This document shows, piece by piece, positions 7,099 to 35,917 of a stretch of DNA of 64,000 nt. Each line of letters starts with the position of its first letter. Position 1 is the first letter of the stretch. The notes below the pieces were generated by a model. That model had not been told where the DNA came from, searched no databases, and was given only the letters and a program-made list of their open reading frames with translations. The stretch covers positions 1 through 64,000 of the forward strand of contig CABMDO010000009.1 in assembly GCA_902384935.1 (NCBI GenBank), written 5' to 3'. Made by a program: the position numbers and the translations under genes. The stretch is from Candidatus Norongarragalina meridionalis (GTDB lineage Archaea; Micrarchaeota; Micrarchaeia; Norongarragalinales; Norongarragalinaceae).

Positions 7099-8368
7099 CC
7101 TGAAGTGGGTTCGCGAGAACCCCGACGTTGTTCGGAAGGACTTGAAGCGCAGGCGAATGACTACCGAACTGCTTGACGACCTCCTCACTGCCGACTTGGA
7201 ATACCGCCGCCTCAAGCAGGAAGTGGACAACCTCCGCGCCGAACGCAACCGTCTTACCGAACAGGTCCGCACCCTCAAGAAAGAGGGAAAGAATGCCGAC
7301 GCCGAGCTGAAGAAAGCGGCGGGCATTCCCGACATGATTAAGACGACGGAAGAAACCGCCGACAGGGAACTCAATCGCGTCAAATATTCGCTGATGCGCC
7401 TGCCGAACATCCTCCACGAGTCCGTGCCCGACGGAAAGGACGACACGGAAAACAAGGAGTTGCGCAAGTGGGGCACGCCGAAAACCCCTTCATTCAACCT
7501 CCGCACGCACGAGGAAATCGCCGAGAAAATGGGCGGAGCGGATTTTGAGCGCGGGGCGAAGATATCCGGCGCGGGATTCTGCTTCATCAAGGGCAATCTC
7601 GCCCTGATGGACATCGCATTGCAGCGCTTCGCGATTGACTCGCTGATGAAGAAGGGCTTCACGCTCCTGGAACCGCCGCTCATGATGCGCCGCGACTCAT
7701 ATGAAGGAGTAACCGACTTGGCGGACTTCGAGAACGTGATGTACGGAATAAAGGACGACGATTCCTATCTCATAGCAACCAGCGAGCATCCAATCGCGGC
7801 GATGCACCGCGACGAAGTCCTCGAAGAGCTTCCGCTTCTTTATGCCGGCGTGAGTCCGTGCTTCCGCCGCGAGATAGGAGCGCACGGCGTCGACACTAAG
7901 GGCTTATTCCGCATGCACCAATTCCAGAAAGTGGAGCAGTTCGTCTTCTGCGCTCCCGAAGAGTCCTGGGAATGGCATGAAAAGCTCCTGAAGAACGCCG
8001 AGGAAATCTGGCAGGCGCTCGGAATCCCGTACAGCGTCGTAGCCGTTTGCACAGGGGACATGGGCACCGTTGCGGCTAAGAAGTACGACATCGAAGCGTG
8101 GATGCCCCGCGAAGGAAAGTACAAGGAAGTGGTTTCCTGCAGCAACTGCACCTCTTACCAGGCGGTTCGGCTGAACATCAAGCGCCGCATAGGCAAGCAG
8201 GGCGCGCTTGACGAGAAAAAGGAGTGGCTGCACACGCTGAACAGCACCGCCATCGCCACGTCCCGCGCGTTGCGCGCTATCTTGGAAAACAACCAGCATG
8301 AGGATGGAAGCGTGGAAATACCCAAGGTGCTCCGTCCCTACATGAATAATATGACGGAGCTGCGCTGA
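7091..8368 (+). CDS. serS: Seryl-tRNA synthetase
   Basis: MLDLKWVRENPDVVRKDLKRR; class II motifs GVSPCFRREIGAHGVDTKGLFRMHQFQKVEQF; NSTAIATSRALRAILENNQ. Confidence 0.97.
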   Translation: MLDLKWVRENPDVVRKDLKRRRMTTELLDDLLTADLEYRRLKQEVDNLRAERNRLTEQVRTLKKEGKNADAELKKAAGIPDMIKTTEETADRELNRVKYSLMRLPNILHESVPDGKDDTENKELRKWGTPKTPSFNLRTHEEIAEKMGGADFERGAKISGAGFCFIKGNLALMDIALQRFAIDSLMKKGFTLLEPPLMMRRDSYEGVTDLADFENVMYGIKDDDSYLIATSEHPIAAMHRDEVLEELPLLYAGVSPCFRREIGAHGVDTKGLFRMHQFQKVEQFVFCAPEESWEWHEKLLKNAEEIWQALGIPYSVVAVCTGDMGTVAAKKYDIEAWMPREGKYKEVVSCSNCTSYQAVRLNIKRRIGKQGALDEKKEWLHTLNSTAIATSRALRAILENNQHEDGSVEIPKVLRPYMNNMTELR

Positions 8369-14879: not shown

Positions 14880-16100
14880 ATGACAATGAACCTGGAAACC
14901 GTACCCGTAAACAGGGAGGAATTCCAGCGCCTAGTCTCCCCCGTTCCCGATCGGGATAAACCGCGCTACAGCTGGCATGCCTTCAAGCACAGCTATTCCA
15001 AGGAACTCGTCGACAAAATCATTGACGAATTCGGGATACCAGAAGACGGGCGCGTGCTTGATCCGTTTTGCGGCGGCGGCACAACTCTTTTGGCCTGCAA
15101 AGAACGCAACCTAGAGGCAGTAGGATATGACATTCTGCCGTTCTCGGTTTTTCTGTCAAACGTAAAGACGACCGATTTTGAGGCAGAAAAACTGGAAAAA
15201 GCGCTGTCCACGTTCAGAGTGATTAGAACCAGTAACGAACTGCCCGATGTGAAGATAGTTGACAAGGCGTTTACGCCCGCAGTTCAAGAAACGATAATGG
15301 GCATAAAAACGTGGATAGAAACGCTGCCAAACAAAAAGGAGGCGGAGTTTTTCCTTCTGGCACTTCTAACGACTGTCGACAAAGTCAGCAGGGCTACTAA
15401 GAGCGGGGGATTTCTGAGAATAGTTAAAAAAAGCCAGACGCAAAATCGCACAGTCAACGTTTTTCTAGAAACTAGCAGAAAAATGATTGAGGACGTAAAG
15501 AAACTTCCCCTCAAGGAAAAATCAGGCGCCAAGGCGCATCTCGGCGATGCTAGAAAAATTCCAAAACGCGGCAAATACGATGCGGTAATAACGTCGCCGC
15601 CATATCCGAACCGCCACGACTATACGCGGATATACGCGCTCGAGCTTCTAACAGCGTTTACGAACTCCAACAAGGAACTGAAGGAACTCAGGTACAGGAC
15701 GCTTCGCTCACATGTCGAAGCTAGGGAAACGATAGTTGCAAAGGGCTACTCGCAACCCCAACTGCTAACCTACAAGCTAGATGAACTCGGGAAAAGAAAA
15801 ATGAACAACTCACAAATCATCCCGATGCTCGAAGGTTATTTCGAAGACATGTATCTCGTACTGAAACAAATAAAGCGAGATTTGAAAAAAGGCGGGAGAG
15901 CCGCGCTAGTTGTAAGCAACGTTAGATACGAGGGCGTTTCTATACCCGTAGACGAAATACTTGCCGAAATCGGAGTGAAGGCGGGTCTTAAGAACGCGAG
16001 TATTCTTAAGGCGAGAGATCGTGGCAACAGTTCGCAACAGATGGAAAAATATTCGCGAGAACCCGCACGCGAAAGCATCATCGTTTGGAAGAACGCATAA
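14880..16100 (+). CDS. N4-cytosine/N6-adenine DNA methyltransferase
   Basis: VLDPFCGGGTTLLACKERNLEAVGYD (motif I) and VITSPPYPNRHDYTRIYALEL (motif IV). Confidence 0.88.
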   Translation: MTMNLETVPVNREEFQRLVSPVPDRDKPRYSWHAFKHSYSKELVDKIIDEFGIPEDGRVLDPFCGGGTTLLACKERNLEAVGYDILPFSVFLSNVKTTDFEAEKLEKALSTFRVIRTSNELPDVKIVDKAFTPAVQETIMGIKTWIETLPNKKEAEFFLLALLTTVDKVSRATKSGGFLRIVKKSQTQNRTVNVFLETSRKMIEDVKKLPLKEKSGAKAHLGDARKIPKRGKYDAVITSPPYPNRHDYTRIYALELLTAFTNSNKELKELRYRTLRSHVEARETIVAKGYSQPQLLTYKLDELGKRKMNNSQIIPMLEGYFEDMYLVLKQIKRDLKKGGRAALVVSNVRYEGVSIPVDEILAEIGVKAGLKNASILKARDRGNSSQQMEKYSREPARESIIVWKNA

Positions 16101-17199
16101 TTACTTTCTCGTACTGTTTGTATTCGGCGTAGTTATCGATTATCTTGTTTTTTTCTAGATAATATTGATAAGCAATTTTAAGAAAGTCGTGTCTTCCTTT
16201 AAAAGAATAGGATTCAACGGAGGCTTGTTGGACATACTTATTAAAACGGTCCAGTATTAGAGGATTCCTGGGTTCTTTGAATTTAGATATCAATTCTGAA
16301 TCAGAACGAATAGCGTCTAATAGGGTTAGGTAGAATGAGACAAATTTCGAAACATCGAACTTTGGACTGTTGAATAGGGATTCCTCTACAAAAAAATAAG
16401 CCGAAACTATTGCCGCACGCCGCCTAAGCTCCACTGCCTTCGGACCGAAAGCAGAATCCATTTTTTCTAGTATGAATCCGACTTGTTCGAGTTTTCTTTC
16501 GTCGTCTTCGGAAAGTTGTTGATAGCTATCAAAAAAAGCCCTGAGCTCTTCTATCCGAGCTCGACTAAATTCTTTTTTTCTGAACTGAAGCGAATTTAGA
16601 AGTATTTGCGCTAAAACAACCTGCCTAGAAAAACGATAATCTTTCAGACCGACTTTAGAGATAAAGGGCAAGTTTGCCTTTCTGAAGACAAAGTCTCGCA
16701 TTTCACCTGGTCGAACATTTAGTATTTCTCCACCGTTGAGCGGACGCCCGAGATTAATTCGGCGAAATATTTCACAAATATAGCTAACATCGGGTTCTTC
16801 GAGCAAAACGACATCGAACTCGTAGTTTTCTACGTTTTTATTCTGATTTGTCTGTTTAAGTTCGGCATAGTTCTGACCCCACGCGCCAGGGGTTATGCCG
16901 TCTTTATGAATTCGGAGATAGGCTCGACCTCTGCCAGTATCAAATCCACTAAAAAAGTTGATTATACTTTTAATTCTTTGTTTGCCGTCTATACACTCAA
17001 AACGATTGCCAATCTTAGCGAGATAAATTTTAGGGATATCAATATCATTAAGCATTGAATTTATAAGAAAACCTTGTTTTTCAAGAGACCATATAAAATC
17101 TCGCTGATATTCGGCGTCTAAATCTAAATCTCCAGACTCGCAAAGTTTGAAAAGTTCTAGAGCGGTAAACTTTCTAGACCTACGATTAACCGATTCCAT
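16078..17199 (-). CDS. DUF262 (GmrSD N-terminal/ParB-like) protein without obvious HNH (DUF1524) domain
   Basis: LDAEYQRDFIWSLEKQGFLINSMLNDIDIPKIYLAK; FECIDGKQRIKSIINFF. Confidence 0.85.
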   Translation of the reverse strand: MESVNRRSRKFTALELFKLCESGDLDLDAEYQRDFIWSLEKQGFLINSMLNDIDIPKIYLAKIGNRFECIDGKQRIKSIINFFSGFDTGRGRAYLRIHKDGITPGAWGQNYAELKQTNQNKNVENYEFDVVLLEEPDVSYICEIFRRINLGRPLNGGEILNVRPGEMRDFVFRKANLPFISKVGLKDYRFSRQVVLAQILLNSLQFRKKEFSRARIEELRAFFDSYQQLSEDDERKLEQVGFILEKMDSAFGPKAVELRRRAAIVSAYFFVEESLFNSPKFDVSKFVSFYLTLLDAIRSDSELISKFKEPRNPLILDRFNKYVQQASVESYSFKGRHDFLKIAYQYYLEKNKIIDNYAEYKQYEKVIMRSSKR

Positions 17200-18253
17200 T
17201 TTCCCACCACGCAGATATTTTTTGAGAATAGTTCGTGCTTACGTTCATTGACTTAAAGAAAAAATCTAACCAATCTAAGAAAGCGCCACCATGAGTCTCT
17301 TTGTGAATCAGGTGATAATTAGGCAGGGTAAGATAATTTTCGTCAAAGTCTAAATAGAACCCTAAACGCCTAAGTGTTTTTTCGTATCTAGTGCTGCCAG
17401 CTATAAATTGAATATCATAGTCATGGGCGTTTTGTGTCTTAAAGAGTAGATGAATAAGGCTGAGATCATAATGACTGAGCGAACTTCCGACGATTCTGAG
17501 TGTGTCGCAATTAGACAGTATGCGTTCTGCTGCGCTATAAATATCTCCGAATGGAGGCGTCCAGTAGTTTTTGCTTGCTCCGGGCGCTAGCCAAACTGGA
17601 TGGAATTTGTTAAAATCAGCGAGTTCTTGTTTAACACCTTCCTTGGAAATAACGCGCATCGACTTCGGATCCCGAATCCAGTTATAAGAACCGTGTAGTT
17701 TTAGAAGAGGGGGAATCGTTGGATTGGAAGCATGATTAGCAAATCGCCAAGAACCGTAGTTTACTCCGCGATAGACGTCTTGAAAGGCGCAGTCTAGTAG
17801 CCAATCATAGTTGGTAGTTATACACCCCAATAGATTTTCACGCTCAGGATGCTGTTTATGAAAATCCAAAATCGCCGAGTACAATAAAGGAACTAAAAAA
17901 GTATCGTCGTATATTAGGCAATCTATCAGTGCCCGAGCGTAGTATTGTCGAATTATTTGAGCATCGGAATGAGCACCAGCTAACTCCAGAAAACTAATCA
18001 ATAATTCAATATCTTGTTTGGGCGGTTCTAGAGAAGTAATTTTTATGGATTCTATTTTGCCGCTAATATCAGAATATTCGTAATTTTTATTTACACAGCG
18101 TTGAAAAAGTTCTTTGTCTTTGGGGTTTTGGCATATCCGCGTAAGAACGCATTCGTCAAGATTCCTGGTCTTGGGCTTGGGGCCGTAAGCAGGGTGGTCT
18201 TCCTCCGCAAGAGTAGCTCCAGCTCCAAACAGATAAACTATATCGGCAGACAT
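17186..18253 (-). CDS. SIR2-like domain protein, putative NAD-consuming effector
   Basis: VYLFGAGATLAE; CITTNYDWLLDCA; LLKLHGSYNWI; IVGSSLSHYDLSLIHLL; ATG at 18253 preferred over ORF start 18322. Confidence 0.82.
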   Translation of the reverse strand: MSADIVYLFGAGATLAEEDHPAYGPKPKTRNLDECVLTRICQNPKDKELFQRCVNKNYEYSDISGKIESIKITSLEPPKQDIELLISFLELAGAHSDAQIIRQYYARALIDCLIYDDTFLVPLLYSAILDFHKQHPERENLLGCITTNYDWLLDCAFQDVYRGVNYGSWRFANHASNPTIPPLLKLHGSYNWIRDPKSMRVISKEGVKQELADFNKFHPVWLAPGASKNYWTPPFGDIYSAAERILSNCDTLRIVGSSLSHYDLSLIHLLFKTQNAHDYDIQFIAGSTRYEKTLRRLGFYLDFDENYLTLPNYHLIHKETHGGAFLDWLDFFFKSMNVSTNYSQKISAWWENGIG

Positions 18254-18398
18254 CTTTAAAACACTTAGCTCATCAACTACTAAAAATACTTTGTTCGAAG
18301 GACGTTTAAACCTAGTCGTCACGCTAGCTAAATGCCTATTTTTTCACTGGAAAGCATCTCCCGAAATAATAGTTATTTCCAACAAATATAGGCTATTC

Positions 18399-19506: not shown

Positions 19507-19818
19507 ATGTTCGCCAAGATTCACTCCCGCGCCGACGCCGAAGGCAGGATACGCGAGGTGGTGGCGGTGTGCGACGCCGGCTTGCTCGGGAAGAAGCTCG
19601 TGGAGAAGGAGCTGGTGCTGGATTTGGGGAGGTACCGGGGCTTTTACGAAGGGGAGAAGGTTACGGAAGGGAAGGCGGTCATGCTCATCGCCGCCGCCGA
19701 GAGCCTGAACCTTGTCGGCGAGAAGGCGCTGGCTGCGGCGAGGAAGGCGCGGCCTATCGACGAAAAAGCGGTTCGTAGGATAGCGGGCGTGCCGCACCTG
19801 CAGATTTACAGGGTTTAG
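19507..19818 (+). CDS. DUF424-like protein
   Basis: VVAVCDAGLLGKKLVEKELVLDLGRYRGFYEGEKVTE…LNLVGEKALAAARKARPIDEKAVRRIAGVPHLQI. Confidence 0.8.
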   Translation: MFAKIHSRADAEGRIREVVAVCDAGLLGKKLVEKELVLDLGRYRGFYEGEKVTEGKAVMLIAAAESLNLVGEKALAAARKARPIDEKAVRRIAGVPHLQIYRV

Positions 19819-21354: not shown

Positions 21355-22671
21355 TTAGGAAAGCCGCTTCTTCGCCAGCTCGATTATGGCGTTCATGACG
21401 CTTTCCGAGAACTCCGCCTTGAAGCGCGCCGACGCCGCACGCTCGTGCCCCCCGCCGCTTTCAACCGCGTGGGGCATCTCCGCCTTCAGCTCGGCGATGA
21501 GCTCGTTCGCCTTGAAGCCCCGTTCGTGGGCTTGTTCCGAAACGCGGAAAAGGGCGTTGGAATCATCATAGCCGACGGACACCAACGCCTTTCCTTCCTC
21601 ATGTTTTCGTTGGAAGGCATTGATGACTTTCCCCTTCGACGGGTAGGCGCCCTTGCGGAGGAAATCTAGGCGGAAAAGAGCCATGGAAACGCCGTCCGCT
21701 ATCTTCACCTCGCGCGCATTAATTTCCGCCGCCTTCAGCGCGTTCTCCACTGCCGTCAGCGCCTTCCTGTGGGTAAACATGACGGAAGGCGGCGAGGAGA
21801 GAAGACGGCGGTAATCGTCGAGCGTGGAATGCTTCTCGGAAATGGCGAGGTAGTCGATTACGACGGGTTCCTTGTCCTCGACCGTTCCGCGGAACTCGCT
21901 GTGGTCCGACTGGAGGGACCAGCGAGCGAGGCGTTCGTCCGCGGGGCCGAAACAGGAAGCAACCTCGAAGGAGAGAAGCCCGGCTGTGTGGGAAGAACCT
22001 CCGCCTTCAACGGTAAAGGGGGAAAGGAAAAAATCGACTACGCCCTTTGCTTCCGAAGAAGGGGGATGATGATCGATTATCAGAATCTGGAAACCGCTTT
22101 GCTTGAGATTCTTGACGGCGTGCATGCTTTCGCCGTTGGCTCCGTGGTCCAGAAGGATGAGAAGCGGTTTCTTCGGGAAGGCGAGGCTTTCGTCTGCGTC
22201 CTGCCTGGCGGCGTAATCATCGTATATCGCCGAGTCTGCTTGCTTCTTGACGAACATTCCTCTGGTGTAAGGGATTCGGTTCTGCTTGATGAAATTGGTG
22301 ATGGCGGTGTCGAGCAACAGGGCGCTCGAAACTCCGTCGCAGTCGTCGTGCCAGCGCATGATTATCGGCGTCATGTCGAGGAGCGCCTTTTTTATGAAGG
22401 TGGCGCAGCTAGCGAAGGGAAGGGAATGCATGCAGGCGTCGTCGACGAGGAGGCGGGGGCTAGGGGATACTGACTTGGAAGTAATGAGAGCGGCAATGGC
22501 TTTTTCTGCTGGGGCTGCTTCCGCCCCCGAAAGAACGCGCGCATTACTCCCCATCTCGACCACATCGCCAATTTTCGCCCCCTCGAAAGCCGACATGATT
22601 ATGCCCGCCTCGCACAGCACGTAGTGCGACTTGGGATGGCTGAGCGTTTCGTAGACGATTTTTCCGAACAT
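21355..22671 (-). CDS. DHH-family phosphoesterase (RecJ-like)
   Basis: IIMRWHDDCDGVSSALLL; ILLDHGANGES; ILIIDHHPPS; GGGHERAASARF; ATG 22671. Confidence 0.82.
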   Translation of the reverse strand: MFGKIVYETLSHPKSHYVLCEAGIIMSAFEGAKIGDVVEMGSNARVLSGAEAAPAEKAIAALITSKSVSPSPRLLVDDACMHSLPFASCATFIKKALLDMTPIIMRWHDDCDGVSSALLLDTAITNFIKQNRIPYTRGMFVKKQADSAIYDDYAARQDADESLAFPKKPLLILLDHGANGESMHAVKNLKQSGFQILIIDHHPPSSEAKGVVDFFLSPFTVEGGGSSHTAGLLSFEVASCFGPADERLARWSLQSDHSEFRGTVEDKEPVVIDYLAISEKHSTLDDYRRLLSSPPSVMFTHRKALTAVENALKAAEINAREVKIADGVSMALFRLDFLRKGAYPSKGKVINAFQRKHEEGKALVSVGYDDSNALFRVSEQAHERGFKANELIAELKAEMPHAVESGGGHERAASARFKAEFSESVMNAIIELAKKRLS

Positions 22672-22722: not shown

Positions 22723-23172
22723 ATGGATGCGCTGAAGGCACTTACCGTCCTGAGCCTGTTCGTTTTCCTGGGCGCGTTCGCTGTTTCGTACTACACGCAG
22801 CCCGAAGGCGCGACGCCGTTCAGCCCGCCCTACGCCTACCAACCCGCCGATTTCTGGAGCATCGTGAACTCGTTCTTCTTCGTCTTGATTGGTTCGGCGC
22901 TGTTCTTCGGATTCAGCGCGCCCTTGGTGCTCGGAATCGAGGGATGGAAATACGGCTCGCTGTTCGCGGCGAAGGCGATTCCGTCCTTCGACTTGCTGTT
23001 TATTTTGCCGCAATTCGTGGCTGCGTTCGCCGCCATACTCATCGGCCAGGGCATGATAAAGGACTACGAGGGAAGCGGCGTTTTGTACGAGCATTGGCGG
23101 AGGGGCGTGAAGTATCTGCTGGCGGCGCTTTTCCTGTTCGGCTTGCTGCTCATAGTCAGGAGGATGTTCTGA
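22723..23172 (+). CDS. SpoIIM/DUF95-like membrane protein
   Basis: ATG 22723 after TATA; FFGFSAPLVLGIEGWKYGSLFA…LPQFVAAFAAILIGQGMIKDYEG. Confidence 0.65.
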   Translation: MDALKALTVLSLFVFLGAFAVSYYTQPEGATPFSPPYAYQPADFWSIVNSFFFVLIGSALFFGFSAPLVLGIEGWKYGSLFAAKAIPSFDLLFILPQFVAAFAAILIGQGMIKDYEGSGVLYEHWRRGVKYLLAALFLFGLLLIVRRMF

Positions 23173-23648
23173 TGCTGGCGGCGCTCCTGTTCTTCGACGA
23201 GGTGTTCAGCACGCTCGGGGAGCTGGACTTCGTAGTTCGCGTCATGGTGTTCTCGTACATGCTTTTCTGGCTGTACATGACGTTCAAGGACGCCCAGCTT
23301 CTTTTCGGAATAGCGACCATCGTAGTGGGATACCTGATATTCGTGCACGGCGTTTCCGTCACCATCGTCGTGGTGCTCTGGCTCATCTTCTTCCTGCTCG
23401 GCAGCCAGCTGCAGATGCTCATGCTTTTCGGAGTCCTGCCCTTGCTAGGATATCAGCAGGCAGGCGGAAAATACGTGAAGGAAAGCGAGCTGATGGGCGG
23501 AGGGGGAGGAGCGGCGCAGGAGCTGGAAGCGAAGGTAAAATCAGGGCAAGCCAGCCAGCAGGAGCAGCAGGCGCTGCAGGAGATGTACGCCCAGGAGCAG
23601 ATGCAACAGCAGCAGATGCAGCGCGGGCGCATGAGAGCGGGAATGTAA
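23172..23648 (+). CDS. Small membrane protein with Q/M-rich C-terminal tail
   Basis: 3-4 TM segments then GGGGGAAQELEAKVKSGQASQQEQQALQEMYAQEQMQQQQMQRGRMRAGM. Confidence 0.75.
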   Translation: MLAALLFFDEVFSTLGELDFVVRVMVFSYMLFWLYMTFKDAQLLFGIATIVVGYLIFVHGVSVTIVVVLWLIFFLLGSQLQMLMLFGVLPLLGYQQAGGKYVKESELMGGGGGAAQELEAKVKSGQASQQEQQALQEMYAQEQMQQQQMQRGRMRAGM

Positions 23649-23649
23649 T

Positions 23650-23940
23650 ATGGCGATTTTCGAGGACATCGTCACGTGGGCTACGTACCTGTGGTGGCTC
23701 TGGCTGTTCATAGTGGGCTGGTGGTATTACAACTGGAGCAAGGAGCACCTGGCGTTCTCGCCCACGCTTACGCTCGTGGTGGGCGGCATTCTCGTTTATT
23801 TCCTGGTAATAGAGCATCCCATCATAGGAAGCGCGGGCATGCTGTTCTGGGTAATACTGATGTCCGGCGTACTGTACCTGCTGCCGATGGTCGGCGCGCT
23901 GTTCCACACCGTTCTGCCGAGAAAGCCTCCGGGGAGATGA
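23650..23940 (+). CDS. Small membrane protein, 96 aa
   Basis: Trp-rich TM protein, tight operonic spacing. Confidence 0.75.
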   Translation: MAIFEDIVTWATYLWWLWLFIVGWWYYNWSKEHLAFSPTLTLVVGGILVYFLVIEHPIIGSAGMLFWVILMSGVLYLLPMVGALFHTVLPRKPPGR

Positions 23941-23946
23941 ACTGAG

Positions 23947-24324
23947 ATGATCGAAAAACTGAAGAAGTATTTCAGGTATTACGCCGACACGAGGACTAGC
24001 GTCGCCGAAGCGACGAGCTGGAAGTGGCGGGTTATCGTGATTCTGCTCGCGGGCATCGGCATGGCGTCCGTCTACGACTACCTCATGGACAAATACACGC
24101 GGCTCGTGAACGTGGAAGGCATCGCGCCGTTCATCCTGTCGGAAAAACTCTTTTATTGGTTCATGACGGGAGTGCTCTTCGGGATAATAACGCTCGACGT
24201 CATGTACGAGGCCGAGTTTTTCGTGGTGCTGCGCAGGACGGTCAAATCCGCCGAAAAAGAGGCGAACGCGCGCGTCAAGGCGCTCGTAGGCAGCGGGAAG
24301 AAGGCTGGGAAAAAGAGGGTTTAA
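23947..24324 (+). CDS. Small membrane protein, 125 aa
   Basis: Two/three TM segments with basic tail. Confidence 0.75.
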   Translation: MIEKLKKYFRYYADTRTSVAEATSWKWRVIVILLAGIGMASVYDYLMDKYTRLVNVEGIAPFILSEKLFYWFMTGVLFGIITLDVMYEAEFFVVLRRTVKSAEKEANARVKALVGSGKKAGKKRV

Positions 24325-24349
24325 ATTAGGCGGCGCGACAAGACATATT

Positions 24350-24595
24350 ATGTATCCCACGTTCCTGCTGGAGGATTTCGGCGACGCGTTCGGGGTATTC
24401 GCCCTGATTATGATATGCCTGATGCTCTACCGCGTGATTTATCCCGAGCTCGTGGGCACGCCGTTCCTCGCCATCATCATAGTGGGCATAATCGCCTTCA
24501 CTCTCCTGATACCGTTCGTCTGGTTCCGCTACCTGATGTTCGTGACGCTCGTTATGAGCGGAATATTCTGGACGTTCAAGCCGCATAGGTGGTGA
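24350..24595 (+). CDS. Small membrane protein, 81 aa
   Basis: Hydrophobic ORF; resembles 23650 ORF (TPFLAIIIVGIIAFTLLI vs SPTLTLVVGGILVYFLVI). Confidence 0.7.
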   Translation: MYPTFLLEDFGDAFGVFALIMICLMLYRVIYPELVGTPFLAIIIVGIIAFTLLIPFVWFRYLMFVTLVMSGIFWTFKPHRW

Positions 24596-24599
24596 GCGA

Positions 24600-24959
24600 G
24601 TGAATTTCCTCCTCCTACTGGCGCTCGCCGCAATCGCATTCTGGGCGATGCAGGAAGGCATGATTTTCATCGCGTTCATCGTGCTGATTGTCGCCGTAAT
24701 AGGCCTGCTCGCAGGCGCGGGAAAGGGCGAAGTCGTTTCGGGAGTTCCCGGAGAAGCCGCGGCGGCGCAACAGTACGCGCAGGAGATTCCCGACACCTTC
24801 CGCATAAAGGTGAAGAGCCCGTGGGCGGATACGTTCATAGTCGAGGATTGGAGCTCCTATACCGGCGAAATCATGGACACCGTAGGAGGCACGCTGTTCC
24901 GCCTGTTCGGAGGAAAAACCAAGAGACGGCCGCCTGTGCCGTACAAGCCGGGGCACTGA
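24600..24959 (+). CDS. Small membrane protein, paralog A1
   Basis: MNFLLLLALAAIAFWAMQEGMIFIAFIVLIVAVIG…KVKSPWADTFIVED…FRLFGGK; paralog of 25251 ORF. Confidence 0.75.
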   Translation: MNFLLLLALAAIAFWAMQEGMIFIAFIVLIVAVIGLLAGAGKGEVVSGVPGEAAAAQQYAQEIPDTFRIKVKSPWADTFIVEDWSSYTGEIMDTVGGTLFRLFGGKTKRRPPVPYKPGH

Positions 24960-24960
24960 A

Positions 24961-25254
24961 ATGGACTACACTTTCCTGTTCCTGGTAATCCTGATGCTGT
25001 TCGCGGTAAAGAGCGGCGTGGAATACATCGCGGTTGGAATCTTCGTTTTGCTGCTTTTCACTTCCAAGAGCAAATACCTTCTCGCCGCCGCGGTCGTAGG
25101 CGGCGGAATCGCGCTGCTCTGGTATTCGGGCGTCAATCTCGGCGATTACGGGATGATTGTCACCGTAGGCGGACTGTTCCTCGTTCTTCTGCTCATCGCC
25201 AAGAAGGAAAGCGACCAGCCGCAGGGATACGGCGGGGGAGGGATGTTCGGATGA
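24961..25254 (+). CDS. Small membrane protein, paralog B1
   Basis: MDYTFLFLVILMLFAVKSGVEYIAVGIFVLLLF; resembles N-terminus of 25590 ORF. Confidence 0.75.
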   Translation: MDYTFLFLVILMLFAVKSGVEYIAVGIFVLLLFTSKSKYLLAAAVVGGGIALLWYSGVNLGDYGMIVTVGGLFLVLLLIAKKESDQPQGYGGGGMFG

Positions 25255-25589
25255 TGAACGTCCTTCTCATGCTCGTTCTTCTCGCCGCGGCGTTCATGCT
25301 CATGCAGGAAGGCTTGGTTACGTACGCGTTCCTCTGCCTCATCGTCATCGTAATCATGGCGATGTCAGGCGGCGGTTCTTCCGCAAGAGGCGGCGGAGCG
25401 CAGCAGGCCGCAGGGCGGCCGCCCGCCATTCCCAAGAACATGTACATGAAGGTAAAAACCAACTGGAAGGAGAACCCGTGGGTGGAGGATCAGGGCGCCA
25501 AAGTCGGAAACATGCTCGACGTCATGGGCCGCTCGTTCTTCAGGATGTTCACGGGAAAGAGAGAGGCTGGCGACGAAGAGGACGATTAG
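25251..25589 (+). CDS. Small membrane protein, paralog A2
   Basis: MMNVLLMLVLLAAAFMLMQEGLVTYAFLCLIVIVIM…KVKTNWKENPWVED…FRMFTGK. Confidence 0.75.
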   Translation: MMNVLLMLVLLAAAFMLMQEGLVTYAFLCLIVIVIMAMSGGGSSARGGGAQQAAGRPPAIPKNMYMKVKTNWKENPWVEDQGAKVGNMLDVMGRSFFRMFTGKREAGDEEDD

Positions 25590-26009
25590 ATGCGCGTCAC
25601 GACGCTCCTGCTTTTGATCGCAACCGCGGCTGCGTTCGTATTCGGAATCGAGTGGCTGTACGTTGCGCTCGGGTTGATTCTTCTGGTTCTTCTTTTGGCT
25701 GAGGCGAGCGCGCCGAGGATTCCAGACGAGGCTCCCGCACCGCCCGTCGGCGGGCCTTCCCCCGACCAGCGCGCCCAGGCAAGCGCCTATTCCGCCGGGC
25801 AGTCGTTCGTGCTCGGACTCATGAGGGGAGAGATAAGCCACGCTGTTGGCAGGGCTTCGAGCGAAGAGCTGAACGCGGAAATGTCCAGGACAATAGGCGG
25901 GGTTTCTAAGAAGCTTTCGAAGAAAATCGACAAGCTCGAGGCGAAAATAGACAAGCTCGAAGCGGACGGAAAGAAACCCAGATTCAGGCGCCATCTGGAC
26001 GACGATTGA
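25590..26009 (+). CDS. Small membrane protein, paralog B2 with coiled-coil C-terminus
   Basis: MRVTTLLLLIATAAAFVFGIEWLYVALGLILLVLLL…SKKLSKKIDKLEAKIDKLEADGKK. Confidence 0.75.
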   Translation: MRVTTLLLLIATAAAFVFGIEWLYVALGLILLVLLLAEASAPRIPDEAPAPPVGGPSPDQRAQASAYSAGQSFVLGLMRGEISHAVGRASSEELNAEMSRTIGGVSKKLSKKIDKLEAKIDKLEADGKKPRFRRHLDDD

Positions 26010-26022
26010 CGTTTCGGAAACC

Positions 26023-26051
26023 CTTATATATTGTTACTACCTAATAGTAAC
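26023..26051 (+). promoter_or_regulatory. TATA box followed by 7-5-7 palindrome covering predicted TSS
   Basis: cttatata ttGTTACTAcctaaTAGTAAC, 2 nt before ATG 26054. Confidence 0.65.
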
Positions 26052-26053
26052 AT

Positions 26054-26401
26054 ATGAAACTGCAGCTGTTTGAACAAACAGGAGCGGACGCCCCGGTTCA
26101 TTACAAGCTGCGCTTCGGCTCCGTACGCGGGGACGCCGGCGTGGCTTTGCTCCTGCTCATAGCGGTGTTCTTCACGGGCGCGTTCGTAGGCGCCTGGCTG
26201 CCCGAAGGGTTGCTCGGCATGGCGTCCATGCTTGTTTCCGTACCGTTCGGCCTGTTCGCCGCGCTGAGCATGAACTACGCAATGCTTGCGCCTTTGCTCC
26301 TGCTCGCTTTCCTCTTTTACTTCGGCAGGCTGCGCGGCGTCATAGGCGGCGGGCTTACCGCCTTCGCAATCATAGCGTTCTTCGCCGTGCTCGCGGCTTG
26401 A
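26054..26401 (+). CDS. Small membrane protein, 115 aa
   Basis: Multi-TM; paralog-like to 26473 ORF. Confidence 0.75.
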   Translation: MKLQLFEQTGADAPVHYKLRFGSVRGDAGVALLLLIAVFFTGAFVGAWLPEGLLGMASMLVSVPFGLFAALSMNYAMLAPLLLLAFLFYFGRLRGVIGGGLTAFAIIAFFAVLAA

Positions 26402-26430
26402 TTTGCTCGGCGCGCCCTTCAAAAGCAATG

Positions 26431-26463
26431 TATTTAAATATTAACTACCAAACAGTAGTGTTA
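26431..26463 (+). promoter_or_regulatory. TATA box plus imperfect palindrome related to that at 26033
   Basis: tatttaaataTTAACTACcaaacaGTAGTGTTA. Confidence 0.6.
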
Positions 26464-26472
26464 GTGATTTGA

Positions 26473-26799
26473 TTGGGTAGCTCCTTCGCTTTCTGGTATC
26501 CGCCGGGAAACGACACAGCCGACATGGCGCTACTGCTGATAATCTTCGTTTTCATGCTTTCCGCGTTCGGAGGATTCGGATACGGCGACAACCCCCTGGT
26601 GTGGGGTTCCGCGGTGTTCATAGGAGTCATATTCGGAGCGATAAACGCCGCCGCAGCGAGCGGCGCGGCAATCATACTCGTCCCGCTCGTGCTCGTGGTT
26701 ATGTTCAAGGGCTACATGCCCAGCCTCGGCTCTTTCGTGGGCGAGGGATTGCTGGCGTTCTTCGTAATAGCCTTCTTCATAATGCTCGCGGGAATCTGA
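26473..26799 (+). CDS. Small membrane protein, 108 aa (TTG start)
   Basis: Multi-TM hydrophobic ORF following TATA/palindrome. Confidence 0.7.
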   Translation: MGSSFAFWYPPGNDTADMALLLIIFVFMLSAFGGFGYGDNPLVWGSAVFIGVIFGAINAAAASGAAIILVPLVLVVMFKGYMPSLGSFVGEGLLAFFVIAFFIMLAGI

Positions 26800-27339
26800 C
26801 TACCTGCGGATTTCCTTCATAACCAGTTGCACGAGTTCCCGCGGGTTCTTCGAGTAAACGACGCGGTACTCGCGGTTTGATTTCAGTTTTTTTAGCAGGC
26901 TCCGCAGCGCGTCCGCTATTCCGCCAGTACCGAGCAGGACGCCCAGAATCCTGCCCTCGTCCAGGGCGATTGTCACCTCGTTAAGGGTGCCTACGCCGCC
27001 GCCGATGATTATGACCGCGTCGGCGCTCCGAACCGCGACGACGTTCCTGCCCTTCAAGCCGAAGCCGGTGTAAGCGACGAAATCAAAGGCATCAGTAGGG
27101 CAGTGGTGCATTTCCAGGTGCCGCAGCTTGTCGGAAGCGCCGGAGACCCCCACGGTTAAACCGCCGCTCTCTTTCGCGCCGCTCACGGCTTCAAAGGGCA
27201 GTCCGCCGCATGCTCCGGTAAGAAGTATCGCGTTGTTTTCCGCTACGGCCCTGCCGACTTCGCGCGCCTTCGTGTCGCTGCCCTTTTTGATTTCGCCTTT
27301 TACCGAGCCGCAAACCGCGATGACGGGTTTTCCTTTCAT
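26800..27339 (-). CDS. LOG family (lysine decarboxylase-like/TIGR00725) nucleotide-binding protein
   Basis: IAVCGSVKG; LLTGACGGLPFEAVSGAK; ADAVIIIGGGVGTLNEVTIALDEG. Confidence 0.82.
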   Translation of the reverse strand: MKGKPVIAVCGSVKGEIKKGSDTKAREVGRAVAENNAILLTGACGGLPFEAVSGAKESGGLTVGVSGASDKLRHLEMHHCPTDAFDFVAYTGFGLKGRNVVAVRSADAVIIIGGGVGTLNEVTIALDEGRILGVLLGTGGIADALRSLLKKLKSNREYRVVYSKNPRELVQLVMKEIRR

Positions 27340-27704
27340 TTCTTCAGCCGCAGCAGGATTTCCTGATTGGTCTGCAGAACCTTCTTTTCTATATCCTGCA
27401 GCGCCCTGAGCAGCGCTATGGCGTCGTCGAGTTTCTGCTCGAGCTTCGGGGATACGGAGGAGGAGGATTGGAACAGGGGAGTGCCGTCGTTGCTTTTCTG
27501 AATCATCGAGGCGACCGATATTTCCTTTTCATCGCCTTCCGCGCCTACCGAGGTCATGCTGAACCCCGGAGAACGGTCGTCGCCCGGTTTTGCGCCCATT
27601 GCTTCGTCGGCGCCCGCCACCCCGAGCTCCTTGAGATTCTTGCGGATTTCGTCGTCCGACATCCCGCGCTCGCGCATTTTCTGAATGATGAGTTTTATGT
27701 CCAT
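27336..27704 (-). CDS. Small coiled-coil protein, 122 aa
   Basis: ATG 27704: MDIKLIIQKMRERGMSDDEIRKNLKELGV…. Confidence 0.65.
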   Translation of the reverse strand: MDIKLIIQKMRERGMSDDEIRKNLKELGVAGADEAMGAKPGDDRSPGFSMTSVGAEGDEKEISVASMIQKSNDGTPLFQSSSSVSPKLEQKLDDAIALLRALQDIEKKVLQTNQEILLRLKK

Positions 27705-27764: not shown

Positions 27765-29105
27765 GTGGATTTCCCGAACGGTCCATGGAACAAGATAGCG
27801 GTAGCCCAGTGGGCGGGGCACGCGGTTACGATTTACCAGAATTCCGAAAAAATACTGCTCATGCTCGTGTTCGACGAAGCCGAGGACAAGAGCGTGAAGG
27901 GATTGCTAGTGCTCATGAAGAAGCCCTTCCTCGTAGAAGGCAACCCCGACGCCTTTGCCGAGGCGCAGAGCAGAAGCCTAGTCGTAGTGCAGAAGGTTTC
28001 GCGCGAGGCGAAGCACACCTTTTTGCTCGTCGAGGCAACGCCGGTATACACCGAGTACTCGCAGGCGAAGCTTTTCGACGCGGTTCGGAACGGGTGCGAC
28101 GAGCTGGAAGCGCTCGGAAAAGTCGTCGCGGACATAGCGTCGGTGCACGGAACTAAAGCGACGGAACTGCGCAGGGTGCCGCCTGAAATCGGCGACTCGC
28201 TTACGGGCGACCCGCTTCTGCTTTTCCTCATGCCGGCTTCGGGCGTAGGCGCGCCGCTTACGGAAGCCGCGAAAATGATGCTTCTCGGAACCGAATCCGA
28301 CGGCAAACCCGTCGAAGTAAGCACGGTTCTGCTGAAGCGCGCCGCCATTGCGGGCAATCCGCAGAAACAGGCGCAGGCGCTTCAGGTTATGTGCGAAAAC
28401 GCGCTGCTGACGGAAACGCCGTGCGTCATAATCGATTCCTACGGAACGCTCGGCGGAATGGGCGAGCGGAACGCGGAACCGGACGCGAAGCGCTTCGGCG
28501 AAACGAACAAGATGCCGCCGCGGGGATTCACGCTTTCGAAGATGGTGTTCGGCGCGGACTTTTCAATTGACCTTACCGCCATCAGCGCATCCGCGTTCGT
28601 GAAGGCCTTCGGGTTAACCGACGAAATAATGCAGGCGCTTCCCAACGTGATGCCGCCTACGCTTCAGGACGCGGTTGAACAGGCGCACGGCGGGAAGGCG
28701 GTGCGCGCGATGCGCGTCCTGCAGAAGCAGTATTCCTCGCTTTTCGGACGCGCCGCAATAGCGCCTCCCGCAACGGGTGGGCTCTACGTGAATCTTTCGA
28801 AGCAATCCGATGAGGTTCGCATGCTTGCGATTATTTCTCTGCTGAATTCGCTCCGGAACGGAAGCGCGTTCGTAGCGTTGAACGAGGACCTTGCGGGAGC
28901 GGCAGACGAACTGAAGAGTGCGGTCACCGCCTTGGAAGGGCGCGGCTATTCCTACGCCTGCTGCGCATCCCACCCGTCCGACTTGGCGTTCGTCAAGGAA
29001 CCCACCCTCTCGATAGAAGCAGTAGGCGAGGAAACAATCGCGACGATACACGGCGAGAAAAGGCGCTTCATTCTCAGGCCCACGCTTTCGAAACGCTCAG
29101 CGTAA
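27765..29105 (+). CDS. HerA/DUF87-like protein with degenerate P-loop (tentative)
   Basis: LLKRAAIAGNPQKQAQALQVMCENALLTETPCVIIDSYGTLGGM aligns by eye to HerA GxTGxGKS…VIDxxGE; TATA catataaatagg 27 nt upstream of GTG. Confidence 0.55.
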   Translation: MDFPNGPWNKIAVAQWAGHAVTIYQNSEKILLMLVFDEAEDKSVKGLLVLMKKPFLVEGNPDAFAEAQSRSLVVVQKVSREAKHTFLLVEATPVYTEYSQAKLFDAVRNGCDELEALGKVVADIASVHGTKATELRRVPPEIGDSLTGDPLLLFLMPASGVGAPLTEAAKMMLLGTESDGKPVEVSTVLLKRAAIAGNPQKQAQALQVMCENALLTETPCVIIDSYGTLGGMGERNAEPDAKRFGETNKMPPRGFTLSKMVFGADFSIDLTAISASAFVKAFGLTDEIMQALPNVMPPTLQDAVEQAHGGKAVRAMRVLQKQYSSLFGRAAIAPPATGGLYVNLSKQSDEVRMLAIISLLNSLRNGSAFVALNEDLAGAADELKSAVTALEGRGYSYACCASHPSDLAFVKEPTLSIEAVGEETIATIHGEKRRFILRPTLSKRSA

Positions 29106-30913: not shown

Positions 30914-33900
30914 TCAGGTTACGCAGACGCCGCCGCAATCGCACGACGCGCCTGCCACGAGTTTTGCGTCGCCGTAAGAATCCGCCTGCACGCACATTGC
31001 ATTGTCAGCCGTGGCCGCGACCCTTATTGGGGCGGATTTGCCGTCCTTGAATTTAAGGACCACCGCTCCGGAACCGCCCTTGTTCGGATCCGACGTATCG
31101 GGCAGGTAAATTTTGACGTAGCCCTTCTCCTTCAGGCAGCGGAGCGCGTTGCAGAAAAGCGGAAGATCGCTTTTTATCACGCTCTCGCAACCGGTCCATT
31201 GCGAGGGGTCCTTGTTCACCACCATGAAACTCACGGCGCTGATGAATTTGTTCTGGTTCGCCTTGCTGGAAGTCACCCACAGCTTCGGCTGGCGGTTGAA
31301 ATAATCCATATAGAGAGCGTAACCGCTGGTGGGGGTTATCGCGGGAGCATTCGCCTCGATGCCGATTATCGGGAAGCACATCTTGATGTCGCTTCCGGAT
31401 CCGGAAGTCGCAACGCTCATCGGCGTCAGCAGGCCGGTCATGCCGGGTATCTTGTAGATTGCGGCATGCACGGACGCGATGCTGAGCGTCTCGGGTTTCG
31501 GCAGCTCGCCGCGGAACATCAGGTACGCCTTTGACGAGCCGTGCTTGTCAACTCCGACGACGTATATTTCCGCGTTTCCGGACGCGGTAGAGGCGAGCGG
31601 CCACGAAGCCTTCGTGTCGTCGGAATCTGAAGACTGCAGCACCGCGCCGCCAGGCAGCGGATACTTCAGGTACACGGAAACGGTTTCGAATCCGTTCCTT
31701 TCAAGTATGCTCGCTCCGCGGAAAAGCCCGTCAACCCTAAGGGTTCCGTCCGGATCCCTCTTCGGCGAGTTCGACGAATATATCACGCCGTCCGCCGACG
31801 CCGCGTCGATCGCGCTTTTCTGGCTTATCGGCAAAATGCCCGTGCCTGCTTTTATCGCGCCGTAATTTCTTTTCTCGTCCTTGGCTACGACGTAAATCGT
31901 AACGGTCGCGCCCTCTGCGGGCTTCTGCGTCCACGTCGCAACCCCGTCCTCGCCGATGGTTGCGGGCGGACGGGCCGCCGAACCCGCGTCGAGCAGAGCC
32001 TGCAGGGATTTTTCGTCGGTGAAACCCGCGTCCTTAAGCGTTGAAACCGCCTTCTCGAGCATGGATGCGGAAACTCCGCCTGTTTTCGGGAATTCCACGA
32101 GGGCGGCGTCGTTCGACGGAAGAGATTGCGCGTGGGCGATCGCATCATCGATGGAAGTCGTCTTCTCGGGCTGCGGCACTCCCTCGTTCGTAGTCGGGAC
32201 CGTGTTCGTGGGCTCGGACGGCGTAGTGCCCGACGGCACTGGCGTAATCGCCACATGCGGCTGCGTAGCCAGCCATTTGTGGAAATCGTCCACCGCTTCC
32301 TCGTCCGTCATCGGCTGGAACACGAGGCGGAGGCGGCTTTTGACGAGGGTAGTCTTTATCAGAAGGTACGTCCTGGTTCCGGGCTCGCCGAACTTGGTGG
32401 TTGCTTCCATTCCCTTGTTCGTCGGCTTGAACGTCATGTCGAACTCAGCTGGAGCGGTGCCGCCGTTTTCCGTCGGCGTGGTGACCGGAACGCCGCTTTC
32501 GGTTTGAAGGGACGCTTTCACGTCTACGGGCTTTTGCCCGCTTTCCGGCGTTCCTGGAACTGTTGCGGAAATATCGGAAACGCGGTCGGTACCGGTAAAG
32601 AACGCCTGTACTTGCGCAAATCCATTTTGAATTCCGCTGACTCCAGCTTCCGAATAATACTTCATCGTCGCGGTTGGCGGAGTTGTCTCGGATTTCTTGA
32701 AAGCCGACGCCGTTGCCGAAGGCGCGTCGCCGGTGCAGTAGAATTTATCGCCGGCTTTCGCCGCGGAATCAAGCTCGCACTTGCGCTTCGCGCCGGAGAC
32801 GGTGTAGCACTCCGAATACTGGGCGTTAGTGTTCGGCTGGCTGCTGGAAATAACGTAGCAGTTCGTTCCCGCCGGCAAGAAGTTTGGCTCCGAGTTACCG
32901 ATAGAATACGGCGCGACGCATATCGGCTTCGGCTCGTCGCCGCCCGCCTTGCGCGCGTTGAGGCACATCTCGCGCAAGCCGTCGGAACCGCATTCGCTGA
33001 ATCCGCCGCCAACCGTGCCCGCGGCGTTCGAGCCTGTGGCGAAAGACGCCGCCTCGTCCTTGAGCGGGGTGCACGATTCGCCGCGCGCCTTGGACGCTAC
33101 GGCTACGCATATCTTCCTGCCGTCCTCCGCCCTCGCGAGGCATTTCATTCCCTTGACGGGACAGTCCGAATCCTGCGTGCATGCGGAGGTAACAGGCGCG
33201 GTCGCGCCGCCGCCCTTGCATTCCTTTTCGGAAAGCGTCACTATGCAGCTGTCCGCGGTGCATTTCGTCGCCTTGAAATATTCCGTTATCTTGGAATCCT
33301 TGAGCCAACCCACGTTAAGGAGCCATTTTTCGGAATCGAGTTTGTTCACTTCCGTGCTGACGATTCCGTTGAAATCGAACTGCATGCTGGTGGGGCTGGT
33401 GCCGACGAGCTTGAACGAGCCTTCGGGCGTAATCGTGCCCTTGCCCATCTCGAGGACGTACTGCTGCGGCGCGCCCTTGGCGTTGTCGTAGAGGCGCAGC
33501 GCGACGGACGATTCGGGCGACGCGGGCATCTTTTCTCCCTCGTAATTGGAATACGCGTCAACTGCGTAATCTCCCGCAACGAAGCCCGCTTTGGGCTTTA
33601 TGACGAGCTTGTAATTCAGCGCGGTGCCGACGGAATTCTGCGGCTGGAGCTGCGTTTCGAGCACTAGGGATTCGTACTCGAGCCCCGAACCGAAGCTCGC
33701 CGCGCCGGTTTCCGCCGCGTTCTCGCCGAACGTGAATTCTGAGAGGGGGAGGGGAACCTTGTTCGCGCATTCGGCGAACGTCGCTTCATCCGCGGGCTTG
33801 CGGTAGAATCTGAAGTTCGCGACGAAGGGGGTTGTTCCGCTAGTTGAGAACGGCAAATCAATTGTGCCGTCTACGTTCTTTACGGGCGTGCCCATCGTTA

Positions 33901-35407
33901 TCGTCGGCTTCTCCCAGGAATCCGTAGTAACCCACGCGAGCTTCAGTTTCAGTTTTCCTCCACCCGCCATGCCGTAAATGTTGGTGTTGAAATCGCTCGC
34001 CGCTCCGTGCAGCCTGCACAGCGCGCCGTCGTTCTGGCTCGTACTGAGCCATTTGGCAGCGTTCGAGTTGGCTGAAGCGCCCTCGACGTACGCCTCGCTC
34101 GCGAGAACGGGCATTATGTACGCGTCGAAATAGCTGTCGAATGTTCCGGGGGTTATGAATATGGGCGCGTAGAGCGCGTATTTCCTGTCGCCGACAACGG
34201 CATTGAACAGAATCTTCTTCGCAGCCTGGTCGTATTCCATCGATACTTTTACAAGCGACTTGCCCGCTGCGTCCTTCACCTCGGCGCCGCACAGGTTCTT
34301 GTTGGAAGCGAAGAAGTCGTGCACGGGCTTCGCGTAGGCTGCGGTTTTCGTGAAGTAGACGCGGCGGTCGAGCGAAGGGACGTCCTTGCCCGAGTTCTTG
34401 ACGAAGTAAGCGTCGGTTATGCCCGCGTCGCCGCTCGTGGTTACGAGGACTATGCGCTTAACCGCGTCGCCCATGTCTGGCGCGCCCTTCACGTTAAGGG
34501 AGGATGCCGAGGTAGCGAGCCATCTGGATTGGGCGATGCTCATGCCGTTCTTGAATGCGGGAAATTCTACGGCGGTGACTTTTGCCTCATAATAGCCCAT
34601 CGTCTTGCTTCCCGTCGTCGTCTCGTCTATCGCCCATGTGCTGGTTTCCGCGAAATAGAAACGTACGGTTACCGGCGCGGAGAAGCGCACCCTGCCGTCG
34701 ATTTTTAGGGATTCGCCGACGGTCCATCCGCCCCAGAGGTGGTTAATGTCTTTTACTTCTGTTACGCCATATTTTGTGTCCGATGTAGCGTAAACGACAT
34801 CTATCGAATCCTTCTCGCTTGCATAATTCGGGAACTCTATCCTGCTGACGTCGTAAAGCGCGAACGATGCGACGGGCGCCGCTGCCGGCGGCGCGACGGG
34901 CGCTGCCGTCTTAGTATAGGTCAGCCAGTTTCCGCAAGCATTGCACTTTCCGGTCCAGATTTCCTTGCCGTCCGCGGTGGTTTTTCCCGTGGGATAGCGC
35001 GTCGCCGCGTCGGTGTCGGCTTCGACCTTGCACGGGCCGCGTATGTTGTTGTAAACGCATATGCATTTTCCGTAGAATATTCCGGCTGCACCGCAACCGG
35101 TGTTGCAGTCCCTGGGCTTTCCGTCCGAACCCACGCTTCCCGCCTTGCACGTCCAGTCGAAGCACACATTGTTCGGACCTGGAACGCATTCGGTGTTTTC
35201 GGTGCAGATGTAACCGTGCGTTTTAGCCAAATCCCCGCATTGGATGTCTCCTTGCGCGCCGGGAGTGCACGAACCCCAGCCCGTCGAAAGAGTGGTCGCG
35301 GATACCGCACTCGCGAACGGATTGACGTCGGCAGCGTGCGCGAGCTGGACGAAAACCAGTGAGAGCAAAAGGCATAGCGCGAAGCGGGCAAACTTCAATC
35401 TTATCAC
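30914..35407 (-). CDS. Giant secreted/cell-surface Cys-rich protein, 1497 aa
   Basis: N-terminal signal peptide FALCLLLSLVFVQLAHAADV; many paired Cys; C-terminus CDCGGVCVT. Confidence 0.8.
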   Translation of the reverse strand: MIRLKFARFALCLLLSLVFVQLAHAADVNPFASAVSATTLSTGWGSCTPGAQGDIQCGDLAKTHGYICTENTECVPGPNNVCFDWTCKAGSVGSDGKPRDCNTGCGAAGIFYGKCICVYNNIRGPCKVEADTDAATRYPTGKTTADGKEIWTGKCNACGNWLTYTKTAAPVAPPAAAPVASFALYDVSRIEFPNYASEKDSIDVVYATSDTKYGVTEVKDINHLWGGWTVGESLKIDGRVRFSAPVTVRFYFAETSTWAIDETTTGSKTMGYYEAKVTAVEFPAFKNGMSIAQSRWLATSASSLNVKGAPDMGDAVKRIVLVTTSGDAGITDAYFVKNSGKDVPSLDRRVYFTKTAAYAKPVHDFFASNKNLCGAEVKDAAGKSLVKVSMEYDQAAKKILFNAVVGDRKYALYAPIFITPGTFDSYFDAYIMPVLASEAYVEGASANSNAAKWLSTSQNDGALCRLHGAASDFNTNIYGMAGGGKLKLKLAWVTTDSWEKPTITMGTPVKNVDGTIDLPFSTSGTTPFVANFRFYRKPADEATFAECANKVPLPLSEFTFGENAAETGAASFGSGLEYESLVLETQLQPQNSVGTALNYKLVIKPKAGFVAGDYAVDAYSNYEGEKMPASPESSVALRLYDNAKGAPQQYVLEMGKGTITPEGSFKLVGTSPTSMQFDFNGIVSTEVNKLDSEKWLLNVGWLKDSKITEYFKATKCTADSCIVTLSEKECKGGGATAPVTSACTQDSDCPVKGMKCLARAEDGRKICVAVASKARGESCTPLKDEAASFATGSNAAGTVGGGFSECGSDGLREMCLNARKAGGDEPKPICVAPYSIGNSEPNFLPAGTNCYVISSSQPNTNAQYSECYTVSGAKRKCELDSAAKAGDKFYCTGDAPSATASAFKKSETTPPTATMKYYSEAGVSGIQNGFAQVQAFFTGTDRVSDISATVPGTPESGQKPVDVKASLQTESGVPVTTPTENGGTAPAEFDMTFKPTNKGMEATTKFGEPGTRTYLLIKTTLVKSRLRLVFQPMTDEEAVDDFHKWLATQPHVAITPVPSGTTPSEPTNTVPTTNEGVPQPEKTTSIDDAIAHAQSLPSNDAALVEFPKTGGVSASMLEKAVSTLKDAGFTDEKSLQALLDAGSAARPPATIGEDGVATWTQKPAEGATVTIYVVAKDEKRNYGAIKAGTGILPISQKSAIDAASADGVIYSSNSPKRDPDGTLRVDGLFRGASILERNGFETVSVYLKYPLPGGAVLQSSDSDDTKASWPLASTASGNAEIYVVGVDKHGSSKAYLMFRGELPKPETLSIASVHAAIYKIPGMTGLLTPMSVATSGSGSDIKMCFPIIGIEANAPAITPTSGYALYMDYFNRQPKLWVTSSKANQNKFISAVSFMVVNKDPSQWTGCESVIKSDLPLFCNALRCLKEKGYVKIYLPDTSDPNKGGSGAVVLKFKDGKSAPIRVAATADNAMCVQADSYGDAKLVAGASCDCGGVCVT

Positions 35408-35554: not shown

Positions 35555-35917
35555 CTAGCGGCGTCTCTTTACGATTTTGACGTTGTGCGGCGTGAGGAGT
35601 ATCTTGTCCTCGTCGATGCGCGCGATGTCGCCGTTGATTCCGTGCACGAATGCGCGGAGCGACGTGACAACAGTCTTCAGGCGTGCGGGAGAGCGTGCGA
35701 GCGGCGTGATGTTCAGCAGGATGATGTTCCTGTTGTTCAGTTCCTCCTCGACTATCTTGACGTCGTTCTCGTTCTGCAGCGAAATCGGCTTGACGTAGAA
35801 GTCCGCCGCCTTGTGCAGGACGTCGATGTCTTCGGCGTCGGATGCCGTCATGAACTCTTCAAGGTCCATCTCCTTGCTGACTCCCAAAGCCTTGGACAGG
35901 CTGTTAAAGATTCCCAT
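35555..35917 (-). CDS. sepF: SepF cell-division protein
   Basis: DVLHKAADFYVKPISLQNENDVKIVEEELNNRNIILLNITPLARSPARLKTVVTSLRAFVHGINGDIARIDEDKILLTP. Confidence 0.9.
   Translation of the reverse strand: MGIFNSLSKALGVSKEMDLEEFMTASDAEDIDVLHKAADFYVKPISLQNENDVKIVEEELNNRNIILLNITPLARSPARLKTVVTSLRAFVHGINGDIARIDEDKILLTPHNVKIVKRRR

Follow-up and report, generated by a model that had tools for sequence, protein, structure and literature searches.

A syntenic module of small membrane proteins specific to one order of Micrarchaeota, with a HerA-like partner lacking Walker motifs

In Ced, one of the archaeal Ced/Ted DNA import systems, the small proteins CedA1 and CedA2, with two transmembrane (TM) segments each, lie beside a VirB4/HerA-like ATPase (PMC9905601). 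The gene cluster from Candidatus Norongarragalina meridionalis described here is like Ced/Ted in combining small 2-TM membrane proteins with a protein of predicted HerA/VirB4 fold (d446), but it has no recognised CedA/VirB6-like channel or active motor, contains many more TM families, carries soluble tails and comes from a different lineage. The HerA/VirB4/FtsK-type ATPases (DUF87, HerA_C) are likewise related to d446 by a fold match, and a d446 profile retrieves intact HerA-type ATPases; these ATPases keep the Walker motifs, however, and the N-terminal region of d446 is distinct. On the features tested no known system fits the locus, which does not by itself demonstrate a new mechanism, and we found no description of this gene set in the open-licence literature.

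The window, by which we mean the whole stretch of 64,000 nucleotides analysed, belongs to a genome of 0.93 Mb in 23 contigs that is 90.3% complete. The 11 co-directional ORFs of 81–158 aa reported in the initial annotation (22723–26799) are all present, on the plus strand, and TM helices, claimed there for nearly all of them, are predicted in all 11 by alignment-averaged hydropathy, with two to four segments per family. The series begins with c01 (22723–23172, 149 aa, four to five helices, with E73 and K76 conserved in a predicted membrane helix) and c02 (23172–23648, 158 aa, three TM segments), whose C-terminal tail is Q/M-rich, as had been noted from the letters alone. Next come c03 (23650–23940, 96 aa, three TM segments), which has an EHP motif and good conservation between families, and c04 (23947–24324, 125 aa), a 2-TM hairpin whose terminal segments are both strongly basic (+6.3 at the N-terminus, +6.7 at the C-terminus), consistent with both ends being inside. 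They are followed by c05 (24350–24595, 81 aa, three TM segments), c06 (24600–24959, 119 aa, GTG start), which joins an N-terminal TM hairpin to a soluble tail, c07 (24961–25254, 97 aa, three to four TM segments), with a highly conserved MDxTxLF N-terminus, c08 (25251–25589, 112 aa) and c09 (25590–26009, 139 aa), where the coiled coil seen earlier was found again at the C-terminus. The gaps from c01 to c09 are, in order, −1, 1, 6, 25, 4, 1, −4 and 0 bp. The last two genes, c10 (26054–26401, 115 aa, three to four TM segments) and c11 (26473–26799, 108 aa, TTG start), begin 44 bp past c09 and 71 bp past c10, and by eye each has its own TATA-like box (about 26024–26032 and 26431–26442, respectively), so that they may be separate transcripts.

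Elsewhere in the window, a DHH phosphoesterase (21358–22560, by Pfam) and a DUF424-like gene (19507–19818) lie upstream of c01, and in 17 genomes the neighbourhoods retrieved contain genes that cluster with the DUF424 family. GC content falls to 0.40–0.50 between 10000 and 20000, and two minus-strand ORFs at 16078–18322 read by eye like DUF262- and SIR2-type defence genes. Downstream, a small minus-strand ORF (35555–35917) is found near HtpX-like and phosphoglycerate-kinase-like genes.

Comparison with a same-genus genome covered c04–c09, c11, d161 (a downstream partner described below) and d446, the contig of that genome not reaching c01–c03. Differences in these genes were mostly at third positions, and dN/dS was 0.02–0.39 for c04–c09 and c11; c05, for example, is 99% identical between the two genomes, with dN/dS of about 0.02. 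We take this combination to mean that c04–c09, c11, d161 and d446 are translated and constrained by purifying selection. Orthologs of c01–c03 were found in 21–23 genomes.

The initial annotation had proposed four paralog pairs and an origin by tandem duplication. Two of the pairs are solid (c06/c08, BLASTP 1e-21; c10/c11, BLASTP 1e-11) and a third is likely: the c05 profile matches c03 at 4e-5, against 0.27 at best for reversed controls, and hhalign gives 41% for c03/c05, suggesting that these two are probably related. The fourth, c07/c09 (24961/25590), scored within the range of reversed controls and was rejected. Instead, c09 groups with c06 and c08 (hhalign 95% for c06–c09), and profile comparison places c06, c08 and c09 together in a single hairpin superfamily, with c10/c11 as another; profile similarity between c02 and c03 is weak. 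Tandem duplication thus accounts for c06/c08/c09, c10/c11 and probably c03/c05, but the profile comparisons separate about seven families, duplicated internally only in part, rather than a single expanded family. Pfam searches with all members returned sub-threshold noise only, and PDB profile searches with c01, c02, c03, c06/c08, c07, d161 and d446 gave no convincing match. The TM proteins belong to no known family, and the possibility that all members would match known, unrelated families, raised at the outset as an argument against a common system, was not borne out.

One family had been given a name on inspection. By eye, c01 resembles SpoIIM/DUF95 (PF01944) in its helix pattern, in a G conserved close to TM2 and in a motif like LPQ/LPHG; neither Pfam nor profile comparison, however, supports the assignment. 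The Pfam cut-off was not reached, a single one of 14 orthologs matching at E 0.14, and hhalign of c01 against the SpoIIM proteins of the same order gave a probability of 1.8% (P 0.027, 91 columns). The window genome has two Pfam SpoIIM matches, both away from the contig of c01 and in frames some 280 residues long, and none at c01. The AlphaFold model of c01 (AF2) has five helices at pLDDT 95.5 and retrieved no fold from the PDB with E ≤ 0.001.

The idea of a conserved multi-gene membrane system is backed by co-conservation across one Micrarchaeota order: relatives keep the cluster, with orthologs in about 25 genomes, and a family map was built over the loci of about 26. The consensus order is c01-c02-c03-c04-(c11 inverted)-c05-(c06)-c07-c06/c08-c09, followed by d161 on the opposite strand and d446. 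Adjacency is strict for c02-c03 and c03-c04 (23/23 genomes each, with c02-c03-c04 contiguous in 23/23) and nearly so for c05-c07 (24/25), c07-c06 (23/24) and c06-c09 (15/15), whereas d161 and d446 lie within 900 bp of each other in 15 of 21 genomes and are unlinked in six. In 14 genomes a member of the c10/c11 family lies within the cluster or close to it, frequently beside c05 and in inverted orientation. In genomes with a divided locus (e.g. G002, G009, G010, G016 and G019), whole blocks are kept, namely c01, c02–c04, c05–c09 with d161, and d446.

Synteny across DPANN archaea had been suggested as a check; it holds within this one order and in our phylum sample is restricted to it. Among 245 genomes of the phylum, c03 was found in 19 and d446 in 20 genomes of the order, that is in nearly all of those sampled, and the only matches outside the order were two intact HerA-type ATPases retrieved with d446 and one false c03 match, which lies in the ribosomal operon of G037. 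In a set of 60 relatives, c07 was present in 24/29 and d161 in 26/29 genomes of the order, and both in 0/31 from other orders of the class. Absences are mostly in incomplete genomes; G005 (88% complete) is without every module gene tested, a gap that a single break in the assembly could account for, and yet keeps the giant surface protein considered below. Other DPANN phyla were covered by a single contig scan with the c03 pattern rather than as whole genomes; this c03-alignment scan gave 16 loci, 15 from Candidatus Micrarchaeota and one labelled only 'archaeon', and a scan with c01 alone found no relatives. There was no relative of c03, the only family searched, among 2.9 million viral contigs, which makes a provirus origin unlikely. 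Our confidence that these genes make up a genuine module specific to the order is high.

By following synteny we found, immediately downstream, two predicted cytoplasmic partners that the initial annotation had left out of the cluster and that tell more about it than any other member. On the minus strand, d161 (27336–27701, about 121 aa) has an N-terminal helical domain (GMSxxQIxxNLxELG) and a C-terminal coiled coil, and neither Pfam nor a PDB profile search returned a relative. On the plus strand, d446 (27765–29105, 446 aa) is below Pfam detection for DUF87 and HerA_C, but its predicted model (pLDDT 80) matches HerA (4d2i, Foldseek E 1.5e-8) and VirB4 (4ag6, E 5.7e-7) with Foldseek probability 1.0 and modest TM-scores of 0.42–0.49. 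Walker A (GxxxxGK[ST]) and Walker B are missing from all d446 orthologs that cover the region and present in the two intact proteins from L081 and L082, the nearest active relatives found. In an alignment with these two, the d446 orthologs have GGSRxxR-like sequences in place of the P-loop GGSTGTGKT, and their Walker B is degraded. From its sequence, d446 is best described as a pseudo-ATPase.

The intact ATPases (L081:463–1950 and L082:478–1902) come from another Micrarchaeia family and have a C-terminal hydrophobic helix. A coiled-coil protein of 136–162 aa, d136, is found near d446 in nine genomes (e.g. L041:815–1225, L126:12239–12697 and L137:4043–4531), though not beside d446 in the window. 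At about 135400–136035 of G019:C12, an ORF 12,373 aa long has a partial HerA/DUF87 match, and frames of 3,271–4,281 aa in other relatives have similar partial matches.

Gene neighbourhood suggests a connection between the module and the cell surface. In families f2, f4, f5 and f6 a giant gene, a gene for a 200 aa membrane-anchored protein (p200), DUF424 and c01/c02 follow one another in the same direction. The giant family is order-specific (26/29 genomes versus 0/31), and long copies such as those at L167 (3748–14378, 3349 aa) and L168 (1742–10839, 2861 aa) begin with a TM anchor at the N-terminus. The family to which the window belongs does not keep this pair next to the module: in the window genome the giant gene (L166:3–6536) and p200 (L166, about 6536–7114) are together on another contig (G000:C20), where they adjoin genes that by eye look like the TadC-like and ATPase genes of a type IV pilus system. 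A 1497 aa surface protein at 30914–35407 was considered as a member of the giant family; the giant-family profile gave no match to it.

As c01–c09, d161 and d446 are inherited together and in synteny, we infer one complex, and tentatively favour, at less than even chances, the reading that the cluster is the membrane part of an order-specific cell-envelope complex built on a dead HerA-like scaffold and serving surface proteins. The small TM proteins would pack into a single multi-subunit membrane assembly, in which the 2-TM hairpin subunits (c04 and c06/c08/c09) would place their tails in the cytoplasm, a topology suggested by hydropathy and charge. A ring of d446 could then be docked by the coiled coils in c09, d161 and, in some families, d136, the oligomerisation of d446 being assumed by analogy with its HerA relatives. 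Since d446 has no ATP-site motifs, such a ring would be a scaffold and not a motor, and the complex may be a trans-envelope scaffold, either static or driven by the proton motive force, instead of an ATP-driven pump. On the outer side it might organise, anchor or help to export the large order-specific surface proteins, the giant protein and p200. Counting against this reading are the separation of giant and p200 from the module in the window's family, the giant gene kept by G005 and the six genomes with d446 unlinked from d161. A bolder version, which we regard as rather doubtful, is a new trans-envelope nanomachine, invented within this one order, in which about a dozen tiny TM subunits sit on a pseudo-ATPase ring of the HerA/VirB4 lineage and handle the giant surface protein, perhaps in host attachment or exchange.

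Other readings account for parts of the same evidence. The fold matches of the d446 model to VirB4 and HerA, together with the several copies of 2-TM hairpin proteins, would also suit a divergent relative of Ced/Ted, with c06, c08 and c09 as pilins and d446 as the VirB4-like component. Such a relative is possible, but very unlikely in our estimate, as the two defining features tested for, an active ATPase and a channel with six to seven TM segments, were both absent: d446, without Walker A/B, is the sole gene of its kind in the conserved block (DUF87 has no match at E ≤ 0.001 in the window genome), and no cluster protein exceeds four to five helices where a CedA/VirB6-like protein would have six or seven. 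The soluble tails on c06, c08 and c09 also speak against pilins, and a sequence search of the PDB with the c06/c08 profile retrieved no pilin. Conserved charges within the membrane raise instead an ion- or proton-coupled complex, either energy-converting or a channel. Here E73 and K76 in the third helix of c01 (each in 19/21 orthologs), E88 and E90 of c04 (24/24 and 23/24) and the EHP motif of c03 are suggestive, and many small TM subunits are in the style of respiratory or Mrp-type complexes; as the neighbourhood shows neither a Pfam family nor a catalytic subunit, and the soluble partners are coiled coils and a pseudo-ATPase, we consider this unlikely.

A role in membrane remodelling or cell division would draw on the SpoIIM-like helix pattern of c01, seen by eye, and on the small ORF at 35555–35917, about 9 kb away, which by eye resembles SepF. 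This is highly improbable given the failure of c01 in the SpoIIM comparisons and the lack of any recognised division gene within the conserved block. Finally, the blocks are separable in several genomes and complex formation is itself our deduction, so the genes might be an operon that is conserved although its small membrane proteins have unrelated functions and form no single complex. That the blocks are co-retained once separated, and that d446 and d161 share the same restricted distribution, makes this explanation decidedly unlikely. For the envelope complex that we prefer, as for the module in general, confidence in any function is low.

DPANN archaea are known mainly from genomes, and how they build their envelopes and contact their hosts are open questions. 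A set of some seven to nine new membrane families with an inactivated HerA-type ATPase, which almost every genome of one order carries and which was not detected in the sister orders, provides a defined target for such questions. Should the module serve in contact or secretion, it would represent an envelope complex of a new class; should its role be structural, the fold of a DNA-pump ATPase would have been recruited as a scaffold.
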